Shown: positions 18,351 to 51,287 of the stretch, piece by piece
How positions within the stretch are numbered: position 1 is the stretch's first letter
Layout of the letters: each line of letters starts with the position of its first letter
Source: Diabrotica undecimpunctata
Taxonomy: Eukaryota > Arthropoda > Insecta > Coleoptera > Chrysomelidae
Assembly (NCBI RefSeq): GCF_040954645.1
Contig: NC_092809.1
Coordinates: 75,934,435-75,998,434 of the forward strand
Reading direction: 5' to 3'
DNA length: 64,000 nucleotides
The notes under the pieces: model-generated
Databases searched by the model: none
What the model saw: the letters and a program-made list of their open reading frames with translations, nothing else
What the model was told of the DNA's origin: nothing
Position numbers and translations under genes: made by a program

Positions 18351-18354
18351 TGTG
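18351..18354. repeat. Left 4-bp target duplication of the gypsy element
   Basis: TGTG here and TGTG at 24679-24682 bracket the two LTRs. The uninterrupted inverted arm at about 25955-25975 has this TGTG once (read on minus), proving the insertion site. Confidence 0.95.
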
Positions 18355-18715
18355 TGTTGTGAATTTATTAAAAGGTTCAATATTTATAACACTTACGGAT
18401 TTAATTTATTTCTTTATTTATATTAACTTATCTAACAATAATTTATTATATCCGTACGTAACAAATTCGCGAGCGCGGGTCTTGAGAATTAACTGGCCCT
18501 CCATATAAAAATGTTGTATTTATATACGAAATCCTGATATACTAGAACAGCATCGAAAGATCGCATTGTCTTGCATCGAAAAATCGAGAAGCATCTAGTT
18601 GGAGAATTCACCATAATTTGAATCTAGAACCTCCGGCGAAATTTCTACAACAAAACAGAATATTAGTCATCATATATTTTACAGTTATTTTTAGGCCAGG
18701 ATTTTTATCGTAACA
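18355..18715 (-). repeat. 3' LTR of the gypsy element
   Basis: 361 bp, TGTT...AACA on both strands. Identical by eye to 24318-24678. The stop codon of pol lies inside it (18705-18707). Confidence 0.97.
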
Positions 18716-21700
18716 TTGCCCCCCTCTTAAAAGATGGTTCCTCCTGGAACCTTGTCGGGACTGGAACCGGAACTGTATGCTGGTATCGGCAACTGGACCC
18801 TCTTTTACAACTTCCAGTTGTATAAAAATGACAAGGGACGGTTTTCTCTCCGCACCAGTAACTATGCGGATTGCAACAGACTAACACCTGGACTTCGGTG
18901 TCTTTGAAGATCTCCTCCACCATATTTCGGATAACCCTCCAATCTAATTGGCGGCACTCCAACTTTGGCATGGCTAACTTTTGCACGTCGGACTCTAGTA
19001 CGTGCTCTCTCAATTGAAGTAAGGCTTCCCATACATCTCGGTAGGTAGGTTGGTCACGGGCAGTGTCTTTTGTTACCAGGTAGAAAAGGTAACGTGATGC
19101 ATCTTGGAGTTTCAAGGTTTTACCGGGAGCTGGCACCTGGCATTGAAGTTCTGCAACTCGACCAAACTTCCTTCGAAAGACGGATGCCAACCCTGGTGCG
19201 TCTTTGATACTGGCCGGGATGGTGAGGGCCAGCGAGTAGTCATCGGGGAGCGCGAGTAGATCTTGCTTTTCTTCAGTGGTAACACCATGTCTCGCTTTAC
19301 CGGTACCTCCATAGGCACCCATGAATTCCTCAAACGTGAGGTCAGACACATCGTGGACTTGGTTTACTTCCACTTCTTCATCTACGTCGTGGTCACCTTC
19401 GAAAGACGCCAGCCGGTTATGGTGTACTATCATCGGCTTTCCCTTCGGAATCTTGCTTATTCGGTAGATGACATCGTTGATCTTCTCCATAATGAGGTAT
19501 GGACCTTCCCAAAACTGCTGCAATTTGGGAGAACAACCTTTTCGCTTCTTGGGATTATACAGCCATACTTTGTCGTTCTTCTTAAAGCAACCCTTTTCGG
19601 CTTGTGTATCGTACCGTTTCTTCATTCGGTCGCTAGCGATCTGAAGGTGGGAACGGACCAACTCATGTACATCGTCCATTCTTCTTCGTAATTCGATCAC
19701 ATAATCTTCACCTGCTACATCTTCTCCAGGTCGACACCCAAACTCTAGATCACAAGGTAGTCGCATTTCGCGTCCGAATAGGACTTTCGCTGGTGTCTGG
19801 CCTGTTGATTCGTTAACAGCAGATCTGTAGGCCATTGTGAAGAACGGAAGGTATTGGTCCCAGTCTCGCTGATGATCGGACACCATCTTTGTCAAATATT
19901 TGCCAACTGTCCTATTCATCCGTTCTACCATACCATCAGATTGCGGATGATATGCTGTAGTTCTTGTTTTCTTCATGCCTAGTCTATCACATATTCCTTG
20001 GCATAGATCGCTTTCGAAGTTCCTGCCTTGGTCACTATGGATCTCCAAAGGCACTCCAAATCGGCTGATATATTCTTGGATCAACTTATCTGCAACGGTG
20101 GCGGCCTTCTGGTCTGGAAGTGCGTAAATCTCGACCCACTTACTGAAGTAATCCATTACTACCAGCATGTACTTGCCTCCATTTTCACTTTCTGGAAATG
20201 GCCCAGCGATGTCCAAAGCTATTCTTTCAAACGGGCTTCCAACATTATATTGTCTCATAGGAGCTCTCCTTTTTCGGTAAGGCCCGTTACTCGTGGCACA
20301 AATAGTACATTTCTTACACCAGTCTTTTACATCGTCGGAACTGTTCATCCAATAAAACCGTTCCCGAATTCGCTGAAGGGTTTTCCTTACACCAAAATGC
20401 CCTCCCGATGGACTGTCGTGTAACTGACGCAGTACTTCGGCTATTCTGCTCTTTGGGATCACCAACTGTCTTCTCTTCTCTGAACCGTCATCATTTTCCA
20501 GGACTCGTTTAAGCAAGCCATCTTCGATGATAAATGAGTCCCACTGGGCCCAATACGTCTTAACTACTGAGCATAGGTTTGATATTTCCTGCCAAGGTGG
20601 TCGACGGTTTTCCTCTTTCCATTTTCGGATTTTCTGTATAACTGGATCTCTCTCTTGTTCTTCCCTGATCTTAGTAGGCGTCCAGTCGTCGTTGACAATC
20701 GTCGTTCTTAGCACTGCTGCTTCCTTGGATTCCGTTTTGTTGCAGTGGGAACACTCTACTGAGCATGGCCTTCTGGAAAGAGAATCAGCGTTTCTGTGGC
20801 TAACTCCGGCCCGGTGCTCAATCTTAAAATCGTATTCTTGGAGTCGTTCGATCCACCTGGCTATCTGACCCTCTGGATTCTTAAACTGCATCAACCACTT
20901 AAGGGCGGCATGGTCGGTTCGGATTAGAAACTTTCTTCCATAGAGGTATTGATAGAAGTCGACGTTGATGAACTCTACTGATTTCACTACTGCCAGAAGT
21001 TCTCTTCTCGTGACGCAATAATTCCGCTCAGGTTTTGAAAGAACTTTACTAAAATATCCGAGGACTCGTTCCTGTCCTCCTTGAATCTGAGACAGCACTC
21101 CTCCAATTCCCACATTACTTGCATCTGTATCTAAGATGAACTCTCCTTCTGGCAGTGGATACCCTAAAATTGGTGCTGTTATTAAATGCTTTTTCAAGGT
21201 CTCAAAGGCATTTTGGCAGTCTATATCCCAGCGGTATTCTCTTGCTTCCTCTGTAAGTCGCGTTAATGGCTTAGCGATATCTGCAAACTTCTTAATAAAC
21301 CTCCGGTAGTAAGTACATAGTCCAAGAAAACTTCTCACTTGATGTTTGTCAGTTGGTTTTGGCCATTCCTTAATGGAATCGATTTTTCCCTTATCCACGG
21401 CCACTCCTTCTTTACTGACTATATGACCCAGATAATTGACTTTACCTTGAAATAGCTGGCACTTCTTGGGGTTTAGCATCAATTGGGCAGCTTTAAGTCG
21501 ATTAAAAACGTTTTCTAAATTCCTCAAATGATCTTCGAATGTCTCCCCCAAGACGATTATGTCATCTAAATAAACCAGGCATGTTTTCCAAGATAACCCT
21601 CTCAACACATTTTCCATAAGCCTCTCAAATGTCGCAGGAGCATTACAAAGTCCAAATGGCATAACGTTGAATTGCCACAATCCAGATCCTGTGGTGAAGG

Positions 21701-22874
21701 CTGTCTTTTCTTTATCGACTGGGTCCATTTCTACCTGCCAGTATCCAGACTTTAAATCTAAAGTAGAAAACAATTTACTTCCAGCCAATGTGTCCAATGT
21801 GTCATCGATCCGAGGCAGAGGATAACTATCTTTCTTGGTAACGTTGTTCAGCAAACGGTAATCCACACAGAACCTCGTCGTTCCGTCTTTCTTCTTAACC
21901 AGGACCACCGGAGAGACCCATGGACTCGTAGAAGGTTCTATCACCCCGTCTTTCTTCATTTCCTGAACAATCGTTTCAGCTTCCTCTCTCTTCGCCTGTG
22001 GTAATCGTCGAGCTGTTTGACGAATTGGCTTAGCATTACCAGTATCAATTTTATGCTTAACAACGGTAGTTCTTCCCGTCTTTCCTCCTTTCGGTACGAA
22101 AATATCACGATACTGCCGAAGAAATTCCCTTAATTTCCTTTTCTCCATCTGATTTAGAGACTGTCCTGCAACTGCAACCATTTGGTCGAATTTGTCGTTG
22201 GAATTATCAGATGTTGTCGCCTGACGAATTATGGATGTCACAGGTACACAAGTTCCTACTTTTGTCTCTTTCTTTATGGTCACTGGGTAGTCGTTGACAT
22301 TGATAAGTCTCACAGGAATTTCTTTAGCCGAAGTCACCAATTCCTTTCCAATTATGATTCCACGGCCAACCTCATCGTCGTGGTTCCAAGGCTCCATCAT
22401 AACAGGTCTCCCTTCGTCTACAATTCCCTGTAGTCGCGCTACTATGATCGTTTCGCTTCTCGCAGGCACGACTGTATCTTCTGTAATGGCTGCTTGCACA
22501 GTGTTGTCATTATGTGGATGGAGAAATACCTCCTCGTTGCCAACTTTGATTACCTTATTCTTAAAATCCAATTGGAATCCATGCATATTCATTACGTCCA
22601 TTCCTAATATAACATCCTCTTCGATGTCAGCAACTATAACAGTATGGACAAACTTTTCTGCCCCAATTCCCAATTGTACCTGGATTTCTCCATGAATGTT
22701 GGCATTTTCACCTGTAGCGGTCCGAAGTCGTAACCTCGTTGGTAACAGTTTCTTTCGGCTGTTTATAACTGTCGGGCGTATAATGGTTCTGGTCGCTCCG
22801 GTATCCACCAACAACGTATGCTTTTTACCATTTATGTCTCCATCTACATATACACTATCTTCACGACATTTCAA
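18705..22874 (-). CDS. Pol polyprotein: PR-RT-RNase H-integrase plus macrodomain and CCCH finger
   Basis: About 1389 codons counted from a TTG at 22874. The frame is open further upstream, overlapping the end of gag in -1, so the numbering start is conventional. Protease LLVDTGA (Asp24). RT with LDLKSGYWQVEM, MPFGLCNAPATF and YLDD (435-438). RNase H LDTDAS (from 581). Integrase zinc site H819, H826, C853, C856 and D,D-35-E core D888, D948, E984. GPY-like end FWEGPYLIM (1121). All catalytic residues are present. After a usual ending (HHNRLASF, 1151) come 230 extra residues. 1201-1331 matches the TARG1/OARD1-type macrodomain (DYSLAL, VFRRKFGRVAEL, RYLFYLVTK, QPTYRDVWEAL, LAMPKL, NMVEEIFKDTEV). 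1348-1366 is a C-x7-C-x5-C-x3-H zinc finger. The stop TAA is inside the 3' LTR. Confidence 0.96.
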   Translation of the reverse strand: MKCREDSVYVDGDINGKKHTLLVDTGATRTIIRPTVINSRKKLLPTRLRLRTATGENANIHGEIQVQLGIGAEKFVHTVIVADIEEDVILGMDVMNMHGFQLDFKNKVIKVGNEEVFLHPHNDNTVQAAITEDTVVPARSETIIVARLQGIVDEGRPVMMEPWNHDDEVGRGIIIGKELVTSAKEIPVRLINVNDYPVTIKKETKVGTCVPVTSIIRQATTSDNSNDKFDQMVAVAGQSLNQMEKRKLREFLRQYRDIFVPKGGKTGRTTVVKHKIDTGNAKPIRQTARRLPQAKREEAETIVQEMKKDGVIEPSTSPWVSPVVLVKKKDGTTRFCVDYRLLNNVTKKDSYPLPRIDDTLDTLAGSKLFSTLDLKSGYWQVEMDPVDKEKTAFTTGSGLWQFNVMPFGLCNAPATFERLMENVLRGLSWKTCLVYLDDIIVLGETFEDHLRNLENVFNRLKAAQLMLNPKKCQLFQGKVNYLGHIVSKEGVAVDKGKIDSIKEWPKPTDKHQVRSFLGLCTYYRRFIKKFADIAKPLTRLTEEAREYRWDIDCQNAFETLKKHLITAPILGYPLPEGEFILDTDASNVGIGGVLSQIQGGQERVLGYFSKVLSKPERNYCVTRRELLAVVKSVEFINVDFYQYLYGRKFLIRTDHAALKWLMQFKNPEGQIARWIERLQEYDFKIEHRAGVSHRNADSLSRRPCSVECSHCNKTESKEAAVLRTTIVNDDWTPTKIREEQERDPVIQKIRKWKEENRRPPWQEISNLCSVVKTYWAQWDSFIIEDGLLKRVLENDDGSEKRRQLVIPKSRIAEVLRQLHDSPSGGHFGVRKTLQRIRERFYWMNSSDDVKDWCKKCTICATSNGPYRKRRAPMRQYNVGSPFERIALDIAGPFPESENGGKYMLVVMDYFSKWVEIYALPDQKAATVADKLIQEYISRFGVPLEIHSDQGRNFESDLCQGICDRLGMKKTRTTAYHPQSDGMVERMNRTVGKYLTKMVSDHQRDWDQYLPFFTMAYRSAVNESTGQTPAKVLFGREMRLPCDLEFGCRPGEDVAGEDYVIELRRRMDDVHELVRSHLQIASDRMKKRYDTQAEKGCFKKNDKVWLYNPKKRKGCSPKLQQFWEGPYLIMEKINDVIYRISKIPKGKPMIVHHNRLASFEGDHDVDEEVEVNQVHDVSDLTFEEFMGAYGGTGKARHGVTTEEKQDLLALPDDYSLALTIPASIKDAPGLASVFRRKFGRVAELQCQVPAPGKTLKLQDASRYLFYLVTKDTARDQPTYRDVWEALLQLREHVLESDVQKLAMPKLECRQLDWRVIRNMVEEIFKDTEVQVLVCCNPHSYWCGEKTVPCHFYTTGSCKRGSSCRYQHTVPVPVPTRFQEEPSFKRGAMLR
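18716..18728 (-). promoter_or_regulatory. Polypurine tract of the gypsy element
   Basis: The minus strand reads AAGAGGGGGGCAA directly before the 3' LTR, the expected plus-strand primer. It overlaps the last codons of pol. Confidence 0.8.
18777..18833 (-). other. CCCH zinc-finger segment of pol
   Basis: Codes CHFYTTGSCKRGSSCRYQH, spacing C-x7-C-x5-C-x3-H, the standard RNA-binding CCCH finger. It lies 17 residues after the macrodomain and 23 residues before the stop. Confidence 0.88.
18879..19274 (-). other. Macrodomain-coding segment of pol (TARG1/OARD1-like)
   Basis: Codes pol residues 1201-1331. Compared from memory with the TARG1/OARD1 family, which removes ADP-ribose from glutamate: the S-L-A start, the F-[KR]-[KR]-K-F-G-x-V-x-E-L strand/helix, the Y-x-x-Y-L-[IV]-T-K block with its Lys (the family's substrate-attacking Lys), the P-T-Y helix and the M-P-[RK] strand all align. 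The glycine-rich loops have changed: GAGIA is APGLA here, and the GCGLD loop is shortened to ECRQLD, so the catalytic Asp is displaced or lost. Binding of ADP-ribose is plausible; hydrolysis is uncertain. Confidence 0.8.
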
Positions 22875-22945
22875 AGAAGCTATTAGTATGAGAGGGTCTT
22901 TGGAAAAGTTCTGGGTCGAAGCTGCCCCCCTAAGGCTGACCTGTT

Positions 22946-24241
22946 CTAGTTTTCCTGATGGTGAGTTTCTTGATTTGCGTCGTACCTAGGGTGCTTACAG
23001 GAGCTTCGTACGTGTCCTATTTCGCCACAATTCCAGCATCTGATGGTCTTCGTTTTCTTGTATGTCATGCTTTTCATCATATTAACGAGCTGGTCAAGTT
23101 TATCTTCATCTCCTTCCTCTTTTACAGTCCTAACTTTACTGTACCCGCCAGAGGCCTGCGTAGCTGACTCGTATTCGAGGGCGGCGGATAGGACATCAAC
23201 CAGCGTCTTGTGACGAGCTAATCGCAGTGTTCTCTGCATTTCATGATCACGAAGACCATCAATAAACGTTTGAACGGCCAATTTTTCCATCATGTCTTCG
23301 GGAGCTGTTGGATAAGCATATCGTACTAATCTGGCAATATCTACCTCACATTCTTGAAGAGCCTCATCTTTCTTCTGTCTACGATTTTTAAGCTGTGACT
23401 GATATACATGCTCCAAATGTTCGTGGCCATATCGCATATTTAACCTCTTCTTCAGTTGTTCGAAATCATCGGTCTCCTCTACGGCTATGGTCTGAAGCAC
23501 ATCTAAGGCATCTCCTCGAAGGGCGATAGTCAGGTTTACAGCCTTTTCTTTTTCAGACCATCCATTTGCTCTTGCGGCTGATTCGAACTGTTTCATGTAG
23601 TTGTTCCATGATGATTTTCCGTCGAAAGTTGGGACTTTAACATGAATAGAACCTCCACTTCCTTCAAATTTCGGCCGTGTCTCCAACTTAAATTTCGTCT
23701 CGTCTTCTTTTATCTCCACTGTAATCGGATTGTTACCTCTCTCTGCTGTCCCTGTTTCCTCCATCTTCTTTTCCATCTCTTTCCATATCTTTTCTTCGAA
23801 GGCTAACATATCGGTAGCAACTTGGTTTTTTAATGAAGATATTCTATCGTCCAGGGCAGACATCTCAGAAGTGACTTTAGAGATTTCCGAAGAGATGTTA
23901 GCAGAGACTTTGCTTTCCAGCGAAGAAATCTCGTTAGAAACTTTGTCTTCCAACGAAGCGATGTCGCCGGAAACTTTGGCTACATCAGAAGAAACTTTCG
24001 AAATATCGTCAGAAACTTTGTTCTCTAATGATGCGATATCACCGGAAACTTTGTTCTCTAATTTCGAAATCGACGAGATGACAGCATCTTCAAATATATA
24101 AGTCTCTGGATCTAGTCCTTCTTCTAGCAAAGCGTTCTTTAGTCGTTGGACTAACTCAGCCTTTTTTCCGGTAGAAGCTAATTCTCTGTCTTCAAGATGT
24201 CTTCTTAAATTAGTCACTGTCAGCTCATAAATCGTAGCCAT
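22946..24241 (-). CDS. Gag with N-terminal SAP domain, coiled coil, capsid and CCHC knuckle
   Basis: 431 aa. The start is taken as the ATG at 24241, 57 bp after the PBS; an in-frame GTG lies two codons earlier. Residues about 4-40 (LTVTNLRRHLEDRELA, then GKKAELVQRLKNAL) fit the SAP fold, a helix-loop-helix motif known to bind AT-rich scaffold DNA in nuclear proteins. Residues 57-160 are a repetitive coiled coil built on variants of LENKVSGDIAS. Residues 200-365 form a retrotransposon capsid-like region (VPTFDGKSSWNNYMKQFE, LRGDALDVL, YAYPTAPEDM). CWNCGEIGHVRSSC (402-415) is a complete CCHC zinc knuckle binding RNA. The frame ends in the region where the pol frame (-1) is already open, so a -1 frameshift is the likely way Gag-Pol is made. 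A SAP domain is not a normal part of Gag as far as I know; it could help chromatin attachment (inference). Confidence 0.93.
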   Translation of the reverse strand: MATIYELTVTNLRRHLEDRELASTGKKAELVQRLKNALLEEGLDPETYIFEDAVISSISKLENKVSGDIASLENKVSDDISKVSSDVAKVSGDIASLEDKVSNEISSLESKVSANISSEISKVTSEMSALDDRISSLKNQVATDMLAFEEKIWKEMEKKMEETGTAERGNNPITVEIKEDETKFKLETRPKFEGSGGSIHVKVPTFDGKSSWNNYMKQFESAARANGWSEKEKAVNLTIALRGDALDVLQTIAVEETDDFEQLKKRLNMRYGHEHLEHVYQSQLKNRRQKKDEALQECEVDIARLVRYAYPTAPEDMMEKLAVQTFIDGLRDHEMQRTLRLARHKTLVDVLSAALEYESATQASGGYSKVRTVKEEGDEDKLDQLVNMMKSMTYKKTKTIRCWNCGEIGHVRSSCKHPRYDANQETHHQEN

Positions 24242-24297
24242 TTTCACAATTTATTTTATATTCACTTGTATTATTATTATAAGTCTAATTTATGTTC

Positions 24298-24315
24298 GAT
24301 CTCACTCTGACACCA
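24298..24315 (-). promoter_or_regulatory. Primer-binding site, probably tRNA-Leu
   Basis: Two bases after the 5' LTR the minus strand reads TGGTGTCAGAGTGAGATC. TGGTGTCAGA is the usual complement of tRNA-Leu 3' ends; the remaining bases were not checked against a tRNA. Confidence 0.7.
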
Positions 24316-24317
24316 TT

Positions 24318-24678
24318 TGTTGTGAATTTATTAAAAGGTTCAATATTTATAACACTTACGGATTTAATTTATTTCTTTATTTATATTAACTTATCTAACA
24401 ATAATTTATTATATCCGTACGTAACAAATTCGCGAGCGCGGGTCTTGAGAATTAACTGGCCCTCCATATAAAAATGTTGTATTTATATACGAAATCCTGA
24501 TATACTAGAACAGCATCGAAAGATCGCATTGTCTTGCATCGAAAAATCGAGAAGCATCTAGTTGGAGAATTCACCATAATTTGAATCTAGAACCTCCGGC
24601 GAAATTTCTACAACAAAACAGAATATTAGTCATCATATATTTTACAGTTATTTTTAGGCCAGGATTTTTATCGTAACA
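24318..24678 (-). repeat. 5' LTR of the gypsy element
   Basis: 361 bp, identical to the other LTR by eye; on minus it starts TGTTACGATAAAAATCC and ends TTCACAACA. Confidence 0.97.
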
Positions 24679-24936
24679 TGTGTATCAATTGTTTCGCCGA
24701 ACGTTTTCGCCAAAGAGAATTAATTTGGCTTCTTCAGGGCTGAAAGAGAATAAATTATAATTAGCTACCATATATTATCTATTAAAACATTATTGATCTT
24801 ACCGTAACTTAGAATTGTAGAGTTAGAATATTAAAAAACTTTGCTAGTAACATAGTGGTGTTTTTTGTTACTATGTGCAAAAAAAGTTTTTTATAAGGAT
24901 TGAAATGTATGGTAGCTTTGAACTTGACACGTAAAG

Positions 24937-25703: not shown

Positions 25704-26038
25704 ATCTTTACGTGTCAAGTTCGAAGCTACCATACATTTCAATCTTTATAAAAAACTTTTTTTGCACATAGTAACAAAAAACACCACTATGTTACTAGCA
25801 AAGTTTTTTAATATTCTAACTCTACAATTCTAAGTTACGGTAAGATCAATAATGTTTTAATAGATAATATATGGTAGCTAATTATAATTTATTCTCTTTC
25901 AGCCCTGAAGAAGCCAAATTAATTCTCTTTGGCGAAAACGTTCGGCGAAACAATTGATACACATTAGAGTATTTCTTGCAGATTTCCCCAATATTTAAGA
26001 GTTTACTATTTAACTAATCTGCAAAGATTAAATTTCTT

Positions 26039-26041
<3 letters not shown>

Positions 26042-26117
<76 letters not shown>
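26042..26117. repeat. (TA)n microsatellite
   Basis: About 76 bp of pure TA, 32 bp beyond the right inverted arm. Confidence 0.95.
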
Positions 26118-26387: not shown

Positions 26388-28470
26388 CTAAATCTGTCGA
26401 TTATAGTTACCTAACCTTACTTCGTGCACTACAGACCTTAAATGAATGCAGCCTGCCTCATGACTCTCGTCATTCTTCGCCGCTATGGACTCCTGCATTC
26501 CGTTTTCTTCTACTCCCACTCCGTTTTCTCCCGGACCACTCAGAAACACTTTATTGATGTTTTTTTCCTTCCCACTCTGAGCGCTTTTTCTTTCTTGCTG
26601 AACAAAGTTGATGTCTTGCTTCCATACTGGACGGACCACGTTTAGATACAAGATCTTATTTGTGTTTCTATTCACAACTCTGGACTTGCAGAATTGCAGT
26701 AGACTGAAATAGCTTTTTCTAACCGCTGTCATCTTGGCTTTAATCTCCTCCATCATAGAATTGTTTTTATTCACTACTACATCCAGGTATTTAAAACTTG
26801 TCACTCTCACCTGTGTCTATTTATGATGACTTCTTGATCTTTTGCTTCTGCTTCCCTTTGGTTCTTTGACATAGACATGGACTTGGTTTTTTCTCTGGAA
26901 ACTCCCTGTCCTGCCACCCAGCATGGCGTTCCAGATCTGTATAAGACTTTTTCTATGGTAATAATTTTGCCCACTTCGTTTTCTCCCCGACCACTCAGAA
27001 ACACTTTATTGATGTTTTTTTCCTTCCCACTCTGAGCGCTTTTTCTTTCTTGCTGAACAAAGTTGATGTCTTGCTTCCATACTGGACGGACCACGTTTAG
27101 GTACAAGATCTTATTTGTGTTTCTATTCACAACTCTGGACTTGAAGAATTGCAGTAGACTGAAATAGCTTTTTCTAACCGCTGTCATCTTGGCTTTAATC
27201 TCCTCCATCATAGAATTGTTTTTATTCACTACTACATCCAGGTATTTAAAACTTGTCACTCTCACCTGTGTCCATTTATGATGACTTCTTGATCTTTTGC
27301 TTCTGCTTTCCTTTGGTTCTTTGACATAGACATGGACTTGGTTTTTTCTCTGGAAACTCCCTGTCCTGCCACCCAGCATGGCGTTCCAGATCTGTATAAG
27401 ACTTTTTCTATGGTAATAATTTTGCAAGTTTTCTTATCACATCTATAAAAGCTAGGTTTTGGAGCATTCTTCTAAGCAGAGTTTCACTTGGGTTACCTGG
27501 TAACGTTCTCATGATTCTTCCAAAAATCCAGTTAAATAACATAGTAGGTATTACATCCGCTTAATTTAAACTGATTGTTATTTCTAGAGGTTCTAAGAGT
27601 TCTTCTCCTATTTTAACCTTACTGCTTTCGAATTCAACAGTAATTTTGATCAGCCGTACATATTTCTGCGAAACGTCAAATTCACTCAGTATTTTATACA
27701 GGTATTCTTTATTTACGTTATTCTCGTAAAAAATTTCTAATATCTTCCCTCAGTGTGAGTATTTTGTCAGTATGAGAGAGTGATTGGTTAGCAAACCACA
27801 TCAGTAGCAGTATCAATCAGTAATAATTACAGTAGACAATATTCATAATTTCGCACAATGATTCTAAAATACTGTTTTTATTACTTTACTGATGTTCATA
27901 TTTTCGGTTTCTTATGTAGTAAGATGATCCATGATCGTTTAATTAGTATTCCAAGAAACCCTAAGCAAGCGGCAATAGCAGCACATTTCGAATAATTTCA
28001 GTAGATTACATGAGTCATCAGTCAGAGTCCAGGCCTAAACGTCGTATAAGAGTATAGAAAAGACATATTTTAATTTTAATTATAACTTAAAGCTCGTTGA
28101 ATTTTTCGTGGTGGTACAAAATTGATTCAAGATGTTATTGTGACGAGGTTCAGTTGTTTGTTCTCTAAAAGTAGCATTTCTTCATGTGGTCCCGGTGTCT
28201 TATTAGTTTTTAGTTTTGTTATTGTTATGAAAATTTCGTCGTGTATTATCATCTTTGGACCGTTTATGTCCACAATGTTGTTTACGAGTTTTTGATTATA
28301 ATCGAAAAGCTAACTCATATATTTCTTCCATCTGTTTAGTTTTTGTCTTCTTTAACAATTTATTTGTTTTCTTTTTATCTTAAATTACATCGACGCTGTA
28401 GGTTTTTCTTATGTAGGTTATTTCTTTCGTTCTTCTAAATTGAACTAGGGAATAACCAACCACATGTGGT
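26388..28470 (-). pseudogene. Decayed LINE reverse transcriptase with internal tandem duplication
   Basis: Reading on minus from 28470: pre-RT linker (EITYIRKTYSV, KLKTNKTPGP, the last matching the K.GK.PGPD.I motif), palm pieces (YVRLIKITVEF, VKIGEELLEP), a destroyed catalytic box (NLAFIDVI in place of a FADD/YADD motif), then thumb VTSFKYLDVVVNKNNSMM and VVNRNTNKILYLNVVRPV twice. Several stops and frameshifts occur. Motif order is correct, so this is one element from linker to post-RT region; the endonuclease is absent. The thumb region is doubled by a 447-bp tandem duplication. Confidence 0.8.
26523..27424. repeat. 447-bp tandem duplication inside the LINE
   Basis: 26523-26969 and 26978-27424 (period 455, 8 bp between) both run from GTTTTCTCCC/CGACCACTC to ATGGTAATAATTTTG with only a handful of substitutions by eye. 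Confidence 0.93.
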
Positions 28471-48558: not shown

Positions 48559-50904
48559 CTACTTATGATACTGATAAATGTCGTGAATGTTAAAATACCC
48601 CGTATATTGCCTGTCTTTATACGGGATTGGATATATTTTCGTTTTAAATTTTTCCAAGTATTTTCCCTTAAAAGAAAGTTCATAATTTTTAGCCACTCGG
48701 TTTACTTCATTAACAAAATCTCCATGGTTTCCTAAAATCTTCTCTATTTTCTTTCCCATGTTTTCTCCACAATTTATTTTTCTTTCATCCTCCTTTTGTT
48801 CACATGTGTTCACTGTCCATAATACTTCTTCACAAAATTCTGGATTCTCGTCCATCAGTGCCATTTTTTCTTCTGTTTTCTTTTTATCCTCTAATTCCCT
48901 TTGGTATTCCGAGCACCATGTTTCTATTCCTTTCATTTCTCTGATGATACCTTTTTTTTCTTCCTGCTTCCATTCTGTTTTATCGTCGGTTGCCAACAAT
49001 TCTTCTGTACCTTCTATTTCCTGTTTTTCTCTGGTCTCCATCTTATTTTCCTGCTTTCTTTTCGAACTCTTCTTCTTTTTCTTCCTTCTCTTTTTCTCTT
49101 CTGTTAGATCTTGTTCTTGTATTTTCGGTTTATCCTCTACAGTCATATCGATTTCTTTGCGTTTTTCCTGTGCATTGATCCTTCCAAAATTTGTTTTCCT
49201 ATCTGTTTGCATTTCTTCTCCTGTGTTGTCTGGTTCTGCTCTGATTTCCAGTTTATTTTCCGAAAAATTTATGGTGATATCTTTTTTTCTCAATTCATCA
49301 ATTCCCGCTATCATATCATGATTTAAATCTTCAATCACCACACATTTCATACTATGGAATTTGTTTCCCACTCTTATCTGTACTCCCAAACCTTCGTTTA
49401 CTGTCGTCAAATTTTTATTGTTTGCACCCACTAAATCAACCCTAGGAATCTTATACACAAATCTGTCCAAATTTAATTCTTTTACTAGTTTTTTATTGAT
49501 TAGCGATATCTCCGAGCCAGAATCAATCACAATTTTAATCGCTTTATGTTTTATAAATGCATCTAAAAATATTAGATTAGAATTAGAAATTTGTCTTTCG
49601 TTTCCTATTGCTACATGATTCATCTCCCTTCTATTTTGTTGTTGGAAGCTCTGGTTATTTCTATCGTCCCTTTGTTCGTTAGTATTCCTATTCGGAGGAT
49701 TTTGTGCATCTCTATTCCTGTTGTGATTTTCATTTGTTCTATTTTGTGTATCATTCCGGTTATCGTAATTTTGTTGTCTATTGTAATTATTGTAATTTCT
49801 CGGCCTATATTCGTTTGTTGATCTGGGATGTTGGTTTCTCTGGTCATAATTTGATGAATACCTTCTTTCCGGTCCATTATATTGGTCATGTTGTCTTCTA
49901 TTTCTCATTTCTTTTCTTTTCGCTTCTTTTAATTGAAGGAATTGGCACAAACTATCAATATCTTGATAGTTTCTCAAAATCACGTGATCTTCCAACGTTT
50001 CCTCAAAATGTCTGCTGATCATTTCTACCAGCTGTTCGGTAGAATATTTGTATTCTAGATATTTTGAAATGTTATATATCTGCAAAGCATATCTTTCTTC
50101 AGATATTCCCATTTTTTCGTGATATTTTCCATTCTGTAGCTCTTGGTTGATTTCTCTCTGTTTATTTTTCCCCCAGAAATAGTTGAGAAATTTATTTTCA
50201 AAATCTGTCCAATTTTCAAACTCATCTTCCTTGCTTTCATACCATAACGCTGCTCCTTCTTTCAAATGGTTTCTAATTGTTTCTTTGCAATCGTCAAAAT
50301 ATCTAATATGTTGTAATTTGGTTTTCAAATTTTTAACAAACGGTACTGGGTGTGTTTTCCGAATATCCCCGCCAAACTGTATTTTTATGTCACCCGGACT
50401 TTGGATGAGTACTTCTCTCCTGTCTCCCATCTCTCGTTGTTTTCTGATATCCTCAATTTGTTTTTCTATTTCTTTCTTGTCTTCTTGTAAAGCCATTTCA
50501 AATTTTGTTTCTAACTGTTCTAATTCCTTTTTCTGTACAGTCTTAATATCTTTTATTTTCGTTTCTATTTCTTCTCTCTGCATCTCTAGTTTCCTCTCTG
50601 TTTCTTCTCTGATTTTTTCTAAACAGACTTTTACCTCATTTTCATATTTGTCCAAACGCTTTTCCATTTTTCTATCATTTTCTTCTAATTTTTGTTCATA
50701 GTTTTCCAAACGCTGCTCTATATTTCTGTTATTTAGTTCTATTGTTTGTTTTGTTTCTTGTTGATTTCTATCCATTTTTAGTGATGTTTCTTGTTGGTTT
50801 TTCTCTATTGTTTGTGTCTGTATTTGCATCATTGCTAATAATTTTTCCAGCATTCCTGTTTCTTTTCTTTCTTGCGTTTTACTTTGACTCCTTGTGGTCG
50901 ACAT
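48559..50904 (-). CDS. Gag-protease protein with truncated pol remnant
   Basis: 781 aa from the ATG at 50904; the frame is open upstream without another ATG. Residues about 15-160: long, highly charged coiled coil. About 175-330: capsid-like region (IQFGGDIRKTHPVPF, EGAALWYESKEDEF, GISEERYALQIYN). 338-423: Asn/Arg/Gln-rich basic region taking the place of a zinc knuckle, as in some gypsy Gags. 455-560: retropepsin with IKIVIDSGSEISLIN (Asp461-Ser-Gly) and HDMIAGIDEL. Then a Lys/Glu-rich linker (KKRRKKKKKSSKRK). The last 40 residues, YLEKFKTKIYPIPYKDR, resemble the segment just before the RT of gypsy Pol. There the frame ends, so the RT-RNase H-integrase part was deleted precisely after this point. 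The frame itself is uninterrupted, suggesting it is maintained or very young. Confidence 0.88.
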   Translation of the reverse strand: MSTTRSQSKTQERKETGMLEKLLAMMQIQTQTIEKNQQETSLKMDRNQQETKQTIELNNRNIEQRLENYEQKLEENDRKMEKRLDKYENEVKVCLEKIREETERKLEMQREEIETKIKDIKTVQKKELEQLETKFEMALQEDKKEIEKQIEDIRKQREMGDRREVLIQSPGDIKIQFGGDIRKTHPVPFVKNLKTKLQHIRYFDDCKETIRNHLKEGAALWYESKEDEFENWTDFENKFLNYFWGKNKQREINQELQNGKYHEKMGISEERYALQIYNISKYLEYKYSTEQLVEMISRHFEETLEDHVILRNYQDIDSLCQFLQLKEAKRKEMRNRRQHDQYNGPERRYSSNYDQRNQHPRSTNEYRPRNYNNYNRQQNYDNRNDTQNRTNENHNRNRDAQNPPNRNTNEQRDDRNNQSFQQQNRREMNHVAIGNERQISNSNLIFLDAFIKHKAIKIVIDSGSEISLINKKLVKELNLDRFVYKIPRVDLVGANNKNLTTVNEGLGVQIRVGNKFHSMKCVVIEDLNHDMIAGIDELRKKDITINFSENKLEIRAEPDNTGEEMQTDRKTNFGRINAQEKRKEIDMTVEDKPKIQEQDLTEEKKRRKKKKKSSKRKQENKMETREKQEIEGTEELLATDDKTEWKQEEKKGIIREMKGIETWCSEYQRELEDKKKTEEKMALMDENPEFCEEVLWTVNTCEQKEDERKINCGENMGKKIEKILGNHGDFVNEVNRVAKNYELSFKGKYLEKFKTKIYPIPYKDRQYTGYFNIHDIYQYHK

Positions 50905-51287
50905 GTTGTTTCTTTTCGTTACTGTTTTTGTCCCCGCCAAATGTGAAATTTTACAACACTCTATATGTTTCAGAACACGACAATATTTCTCCCCAAATGT
51001 ATTAAATTTTCACGACAAATATCAAATATGCAATCAGTCAATTCAAATAATTCAAAATAAATATCAAATGTACGATTGGTAAAGAAAATAAAATCAAATA
51101 ATTCAATAGCAGTAAATATCCACTAACTACGATCAATCAATAAATCAAATTTATATTCCCTGGAAAAATTGTCAAAATACTTTCAAATTCAAATTCCCTC
51201 AATGTTATATGTTTTTATCTCTGGATCACCTGTACTTATTCCAGATCTCTTTCCCTTCCTTCAAATGTAAAGCTGCGATATTTTCAA

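Follow-up and report, generated by a model that had tools for sequence, protein, structure and literature searches.

In animals, TARG1 (also named OARD1 or C6orf130) takes off ADP-ribose marks by means of the catalytic pair Lys84/Asp125, and the mobile genetic entities best known for carrying macrodomains are RNA viruses. Here, a long terminal repeat (LTR) retrotransposon of the Ty3/gypsy type is described whose Pol ends, past the integrase, in a TARG1-like macrodomain followed by a CCCH zinc finger. The element, with gag and pol between its LTRs, lies at 18355-24678 on the minus strand of a 64,000-nucleotide stretch of Diabrotica undecimpunctata (assembly GCF_040954645.1, contig NC_092809.1, positions 75,934,435 to 75,998,434 of the forward strand), hereafter the window, to which all coordinates refer. 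No such element was found described, by title or abstract, in the open-licence PMC papers searched, in agreement with the novelty claimed by a first-pass annotation of the window; the search did not extend to subscription papers, most preprints, Repbase or annotation databases.

The pol frame continues for about 230 residues (about 18708-19406, minus strand) beyond the Integrase_p58_C domain, and remains open, as had been read in the first-pass annotation, up to a stop codon (18705-18707) that ends 11 bases inside the 3' LTR. The features of Pol are as follows.

18705..22985, minus strand: pol frame, with protease, reverse transcriptase (RT), RNase H, integrase and tail; 1426 codons from stop to stop
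19944..20234, minus strand: integrase core (Pfam rve)
19407..19505, minus strand: Integrase p58 C-terminal domain, the normal integrase end (Pfam Integrase_p58_C, 5.3e-13)
18870..19292 (approximate ends), minus strand: TARG1-type macrodomain, Lys84 equivalent present, Asp125 loop (GLD) missing
18777..18845, minus strand: CCCH zinc finger, C-x7-C-x5-C-x3-H (Pfam zf-CCCH, 1.2e-6, 28.7 bits, cut-off 20.5)
18719..18728, minus strand: presumed polypurine tract, recognized by its sequence, within the coding end of the tail

TARG1 was the closest match of the tail both by sequence and by fold, and human C6orf130/TARG1/OARD1 in the Protein Data Bank was aligned over about 140 residues (phmmer E 2.2e-22). 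With a limit of E 1, the Pfam matches of the tail did not include the Macro model, and no chromodomain family, the mark of a chromovirus, was among the Pfam matches of the post-integrase piece. The macrodomain and the finger proposed earlier were thus recovered; the span given for them, 18777-19274, includes most of the tail, while the macrodomain itself occupies about 18870-19292. The deletion of the catalytic Asp125 loop (GLD of GCGLD), evident in the alignment to TARG1, had been overlooked. As the window copy retains the Lys84 equivalent and lacks this loop, it is regarded as a TARG1 homologue and is not classed as a TARG1 hydrolase. The fold model of its tail is still good despite the incomplete pair. 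Lys84 and Asp125 were present together in 26 of the 31 element sequences of the alignment, but the incomplete pair of the window copy speaks against a simple hydrolase role in this element. The two outcomes named as refuting the first-pass annotation, no macrodomain match and no tail in any related element, were both contradicted; its suggestion that the tail may counter host PARP-type responses or aid integration stays hypothetical.

The element shows the protease-RT-RNase H-integrase order between LTRs, the TG...CA termini and a target duplication within the 4-6 bp range of the Ty3/gypsy group (Metaviridae); the order rests on window Pfam matches for rve and Integrase_p58_C, and on the relative P0009 alone for the upstream domains. 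Its other features are listed below.

24318..24678, minus strand: 5' LTR of 361 bp, with no difference from the 3' LTR
18355..18715, minus strand: 3' LTR, 361 bp, with the pol stop codon inside
24298..24315, minus strand: presumed primer-binding site, recognized by its sequence, starting with TGG two bases past the LTR
22946..24250, minus strand: gag frame, with a CCHC knuckle close to its end
24679..24682, minus strand: target duplication CACA, 4 bp, upstream copy
18351..18354, minus strand: target duplication CACA, 4 bp, downstream copy
25860..26065, minus strand: empty site, where a paralogue of the target is uninterrupted

The direct repeat measured 362 bp with 100% identity, and the LTR proper was set at 361 bp by other copies. 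The presumed primer-binding site may be tRNA-Leu-like. The gag and pol frames, taken from stop to stop, are in different frames and overlap by 40 bp. The insertion target is itself a repeat, and the joined flanks match 25860-26065 across the junction, with a single CACA. The earlier proposal, made from the identical LTRs, that the element moved recently together with its tail is supported.

In the genome from which the window was taken (1.743 Gb, 2867 contigs), the tail gave at least 150 scored matches, 99-100% identical and without internal stop in 149 of 150; this is a lower bound, as 6152 places passed the first look of the search and only part were scored. The layout of gag and pol varied among the 150 copies: 68 had, like the window element, a pol of 1400-1430 codons with gag in another frame, 55 had at least 1750 codons, a length that could hold gag and pol in a single frame, and two were intermediate. 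The open frame was shorter than 1400 codons in the remaining 25, so not every tail lies in an intact pol. Fifty loci were read, 20 from the family of the window (family A) and 30 from a second family (family B), the two lists of 150 places possibly overlapping. Both full LTRs were found in 17 of the 20 family A copies, all 17 with a 4-bp target duplication, ATAT (9), GTAT (4) or ATAC (4). Two copies had no 5' LTR within the stretch fetched, and locus L002, with a cut 3' LTR and no duplication, was compared over 187 bp as the 18th LTR pair; identity within the 18 pairs was 98.9-100%. The near-identical LTR pairs indicate that these copies moved recently, tail included.

Family B comprises the 30 loci read among those found with an Aromia tail as query, which gave at least 150 scored places among 5723. 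Its locus L027 shares 42% identity with L002 of family A in the tail and 68% in the integrase. Of the 12 fetched 5' ends, four have no LTR match, and the other eight overlap the 3' LTR without a mismatch (100% identity) over lengths of 66-168 bp, with GTAT, ATAT or ATAC as the upstream target letters. Gypsy-like LTR elements have been named among the causes of genome-size differences between Diabrotica groups, in a paper that holds no word starting with "macro" (PMC8982398).

Relatives in other species were gathered in three protein searches, with the best 120 of 134 matches in the last one. Aromia, Molorchus and Leptinotarsa, along with some further records, have proteins in which the tail accompanies the integrase C-terminal domain; in Pyrocoelia it accompanies an integrase-end motif. 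Pieces of the tail were found in Gonioctena, Brassicogethes, Callosobruchus, Acanthoscelides, Psylliodes, Aquatica and Diabrotica virgifera, as well as in the planthopper Nilaparvata, where the finger was not seen. Since Aquatica belongs to the Lampyridae and Brassicogethes to the Nitidulidae, the lineage covers distant beetle groups, through age or horizontal spread. P0009, from another source, is a 1339-residue Pol with the same domain order as the window element; its precomputed Pfam families include PF00078 (RVT_1), PF17917/PF17919 and an aspartic protease family, and the upstream pieces of the window align to it in order, with 80-87% identity (protease piece 80%, RT-RNase H 87%). Four proteins of Diabrotica and Leptinotarsa entered as "ADP-ribose glycohydrolase OARD1-like" (P0003, P0037, P0041 and P0068) belong to the lineage by similarity, and P0041 has an integrase domain. 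Scans of viral contigs and prokaryote genomes gave no relative, a result of little bearing on insects.

Two further proteins were observed. P0032, from a metagenome record, has 356 residues in which a retroelement-type protease is joined straight to the macrodomain-CCCH tail, with no RT or integrase; it is a deleted derivative or a chimera. The best structural match among predicted viral proteins was VP8 of Kadipiro virus (A0A8E0KJF2; 34% identity to the tail, Foldseek E 2.0e-15), a virus whose hosts are insects; this match suggests that a TARG1-like domain was captured on a further occasion, by a virus.

In a tree of 59 macrodomains, rooted at the midpoint, 32 element-labelled sequences were set apart by a branch supported at 100/98, which recurred in all 200 bootstrap trees. 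Free-standing TARG1-like proteins made up the remaining 27 rows, including those of flies, mosquito, cockroach and human, none being a known beetle host TARG1. Among the element rows, P0006, P0016, P0029, P0063 and P0070, with no integrase motif and no intact finger, were so called by similarity and host, whereas in each of the other 27 an integrase, a protease or a finger was recognized on reading. Distances between tails tracked those between integrase C-terminal domains (Mantel test, r 0.72, 0 of 2000 permutations as high) in 11 proteins, three of the 14 supplied having been dropped when the cutting motif was not found; this is as expected when both travel together. Between families A and B, the share of fourfold sites that differ was 0.64 in the integrase (74 sites) and 0.80 in the tail (35 sites), and the tail still aligns despite this divergence, unlike neutral sequence.

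Values within families were not used as evidence. In family A (20 copies), the tail had a synonymous difference (pS) of 0.0098 and a nonsynonymous difference (pN) of 0, and the integrase a pN/pS of 0.16; the absence of amino-acid change in the tail is built in, because the copies were picked by the tail's own match. In family B, pN/pS was 0.28 for the tail (the 28 copies, out of 30, that share the most frequent length) and 0.95 for the integrase (29 copies), the latter from positions compared unaligned and with broken copies included.

The favoured explanation, held tentatively at a probability of about 0.45, is that the tail is a captured TARG1 module, originally an ADP-ribose eraser, which has been kept under selection and which in the window family now binds or acts through Lys only. 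A mainly beetle lineage of insect Ty3/gypsy elements would have taken the coding sequence of a cellular TARG1 (OARD1) downstream of its integrase, apparently in one capture only, judging from one tree, and the CCCH finger was probably gained together with it or afterwards. As the C-terminus of Pol, the tail would accompany the integrase in the particle and the pre-integration complex, where its original job was most likely to strip the ADP-ribose set by host transferases on element proteins, cDNA ends, RNA or the chromatin of the integration site, with the finger holding the module on nucleic acid. In the window family, the loss of the Asp half with fold and Lys kept points to probable binding of ADP-ribose or nucleic acid, or to a Lys-only route as in DarG. 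In Drosophila without PARP-1, five of eight significantly changed mobile elements were up and three down, and ten further elements, nine of them gypsy-type, were up below corrected significance; the authors allow an indirect cause for these changes (PMC7712786).

Several results weigh against this explanation. In the alignment, Asp125 is absent from the window element and from four relatives, of which one is without Lys84 as well, and family B has, by eye, Arg at the Lys84 position. The finger pattern follows the macrodomain in 11 of the 26 proteins with the integrase C-terminal motif, several others being truncated. Compared with P0009, no part of Pol has changed more than the tail (68% identity with one gap position, against 83% in the integrase), and thus its constraint is weaker than that of the enzymes, RT-RNase H included. 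Finally, the target sites of all 17 full copies fit RTAY, which the macrodomain is not needed to explain; the window copy itself has CACA.

In a rather unlikely alternative, the tail is a targeting or tethering module that reads ADP-ribosylated or PARP-bound chromatin and steers integration, with hydrolysis unneeded. The integrase C-terminus is also the place of the chromodomain (PMC3605345), and both rootworm families keep an incomplete catalytic pair, with a fold model that is still good; however, the short RTAY site is the sole targeting seen, and a full pair in 26 of 31 members of the sampled lineage would be superfluous for a pure reader. Less probable still is a structural passenger, kept for the folding or cleavage of Pol or for the overlapping polypurine tract and not for ADP-ribose. 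Such a passenger would agree with the loss of catalytic residues in the rootworm families, with the faster evolution of the tail and with the overlap of its coding end with the presumed polypurine tract and the LTR, but this overlap is limited to the last codons, and a passenger would not be expected to keep Lys84/Asp125 in 26 of 31 rows, which come from several beetle families. That a host gene was transduced in one copy, or that the assembly is in error, has practically no chance of being correct: both are ruled out by the at least 150 genomic matches, by the 17 of 20 copies with full LTR pairs and duplications, and by the second family, the relatives in other beetles and the Pol of P0009, all of which carry the tail.

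A stronger form of the captured-eraser explanation is doubtful. In it, a whole lineage of LTR retrotransposons would bear a working host-derived hydrolase on its integrase, a counterpart of the viral macrodomains that would beat the restriction of cDNA or integration by ADP-ribosylation, and the two abundant rootworm families, each having lost a different half of the pair, would have turned it into a reader or decoy. The lineage with captured TARG1 is present in several beetle families, its copies numbering at least in the hundreds in one genome, and with its natural series of full pair, Lys only, and Arg with Asp one can ask if retroelements are restricted by ADP-ribosylation and which matters, reading the mark or erasing it. 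In addition, several beetle entries named "ADP-ribose glycohydrolase OARD1-like" are pieces of retrotransposons or near relatives.

Elsewhere in the window, a 456-bp tandem duplication (26515-27425, copies 98.7% identical) lies near the insertion-target repeats, and an 816-codon frame (48559-51009, minus strand) looks by eye like the gag and aspartic protease part of another LTR element; RT was not noticed in that frame.

Among known systems, TARG1/OARD1/C6orf130, an ALC1-like macrodomain hydrolase, is alike in sequence, in fold and in the catalytic pair of most element rows, but the element copy is fused to an integrase and followed by a CCCH finger, and in the window it lacks the Asp125 loop. 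The DarG macrodomain, of a bacterial antitoxin acting on ADP-ribosylated DNA, differs and shows lower identity (24%). RNA-virus macrodomains (alphavirus nsP3, insect viruses) match in fold and are likewise found in mobile genetic entities. Chromoviruses, also Ty3/gypsy elements, have an extra domain fused past the integrase at the end of Pol (PMC3605345); theirs is a chromodomain, whereas that of the beetle elements is a macrodomain with a CCCH finger.
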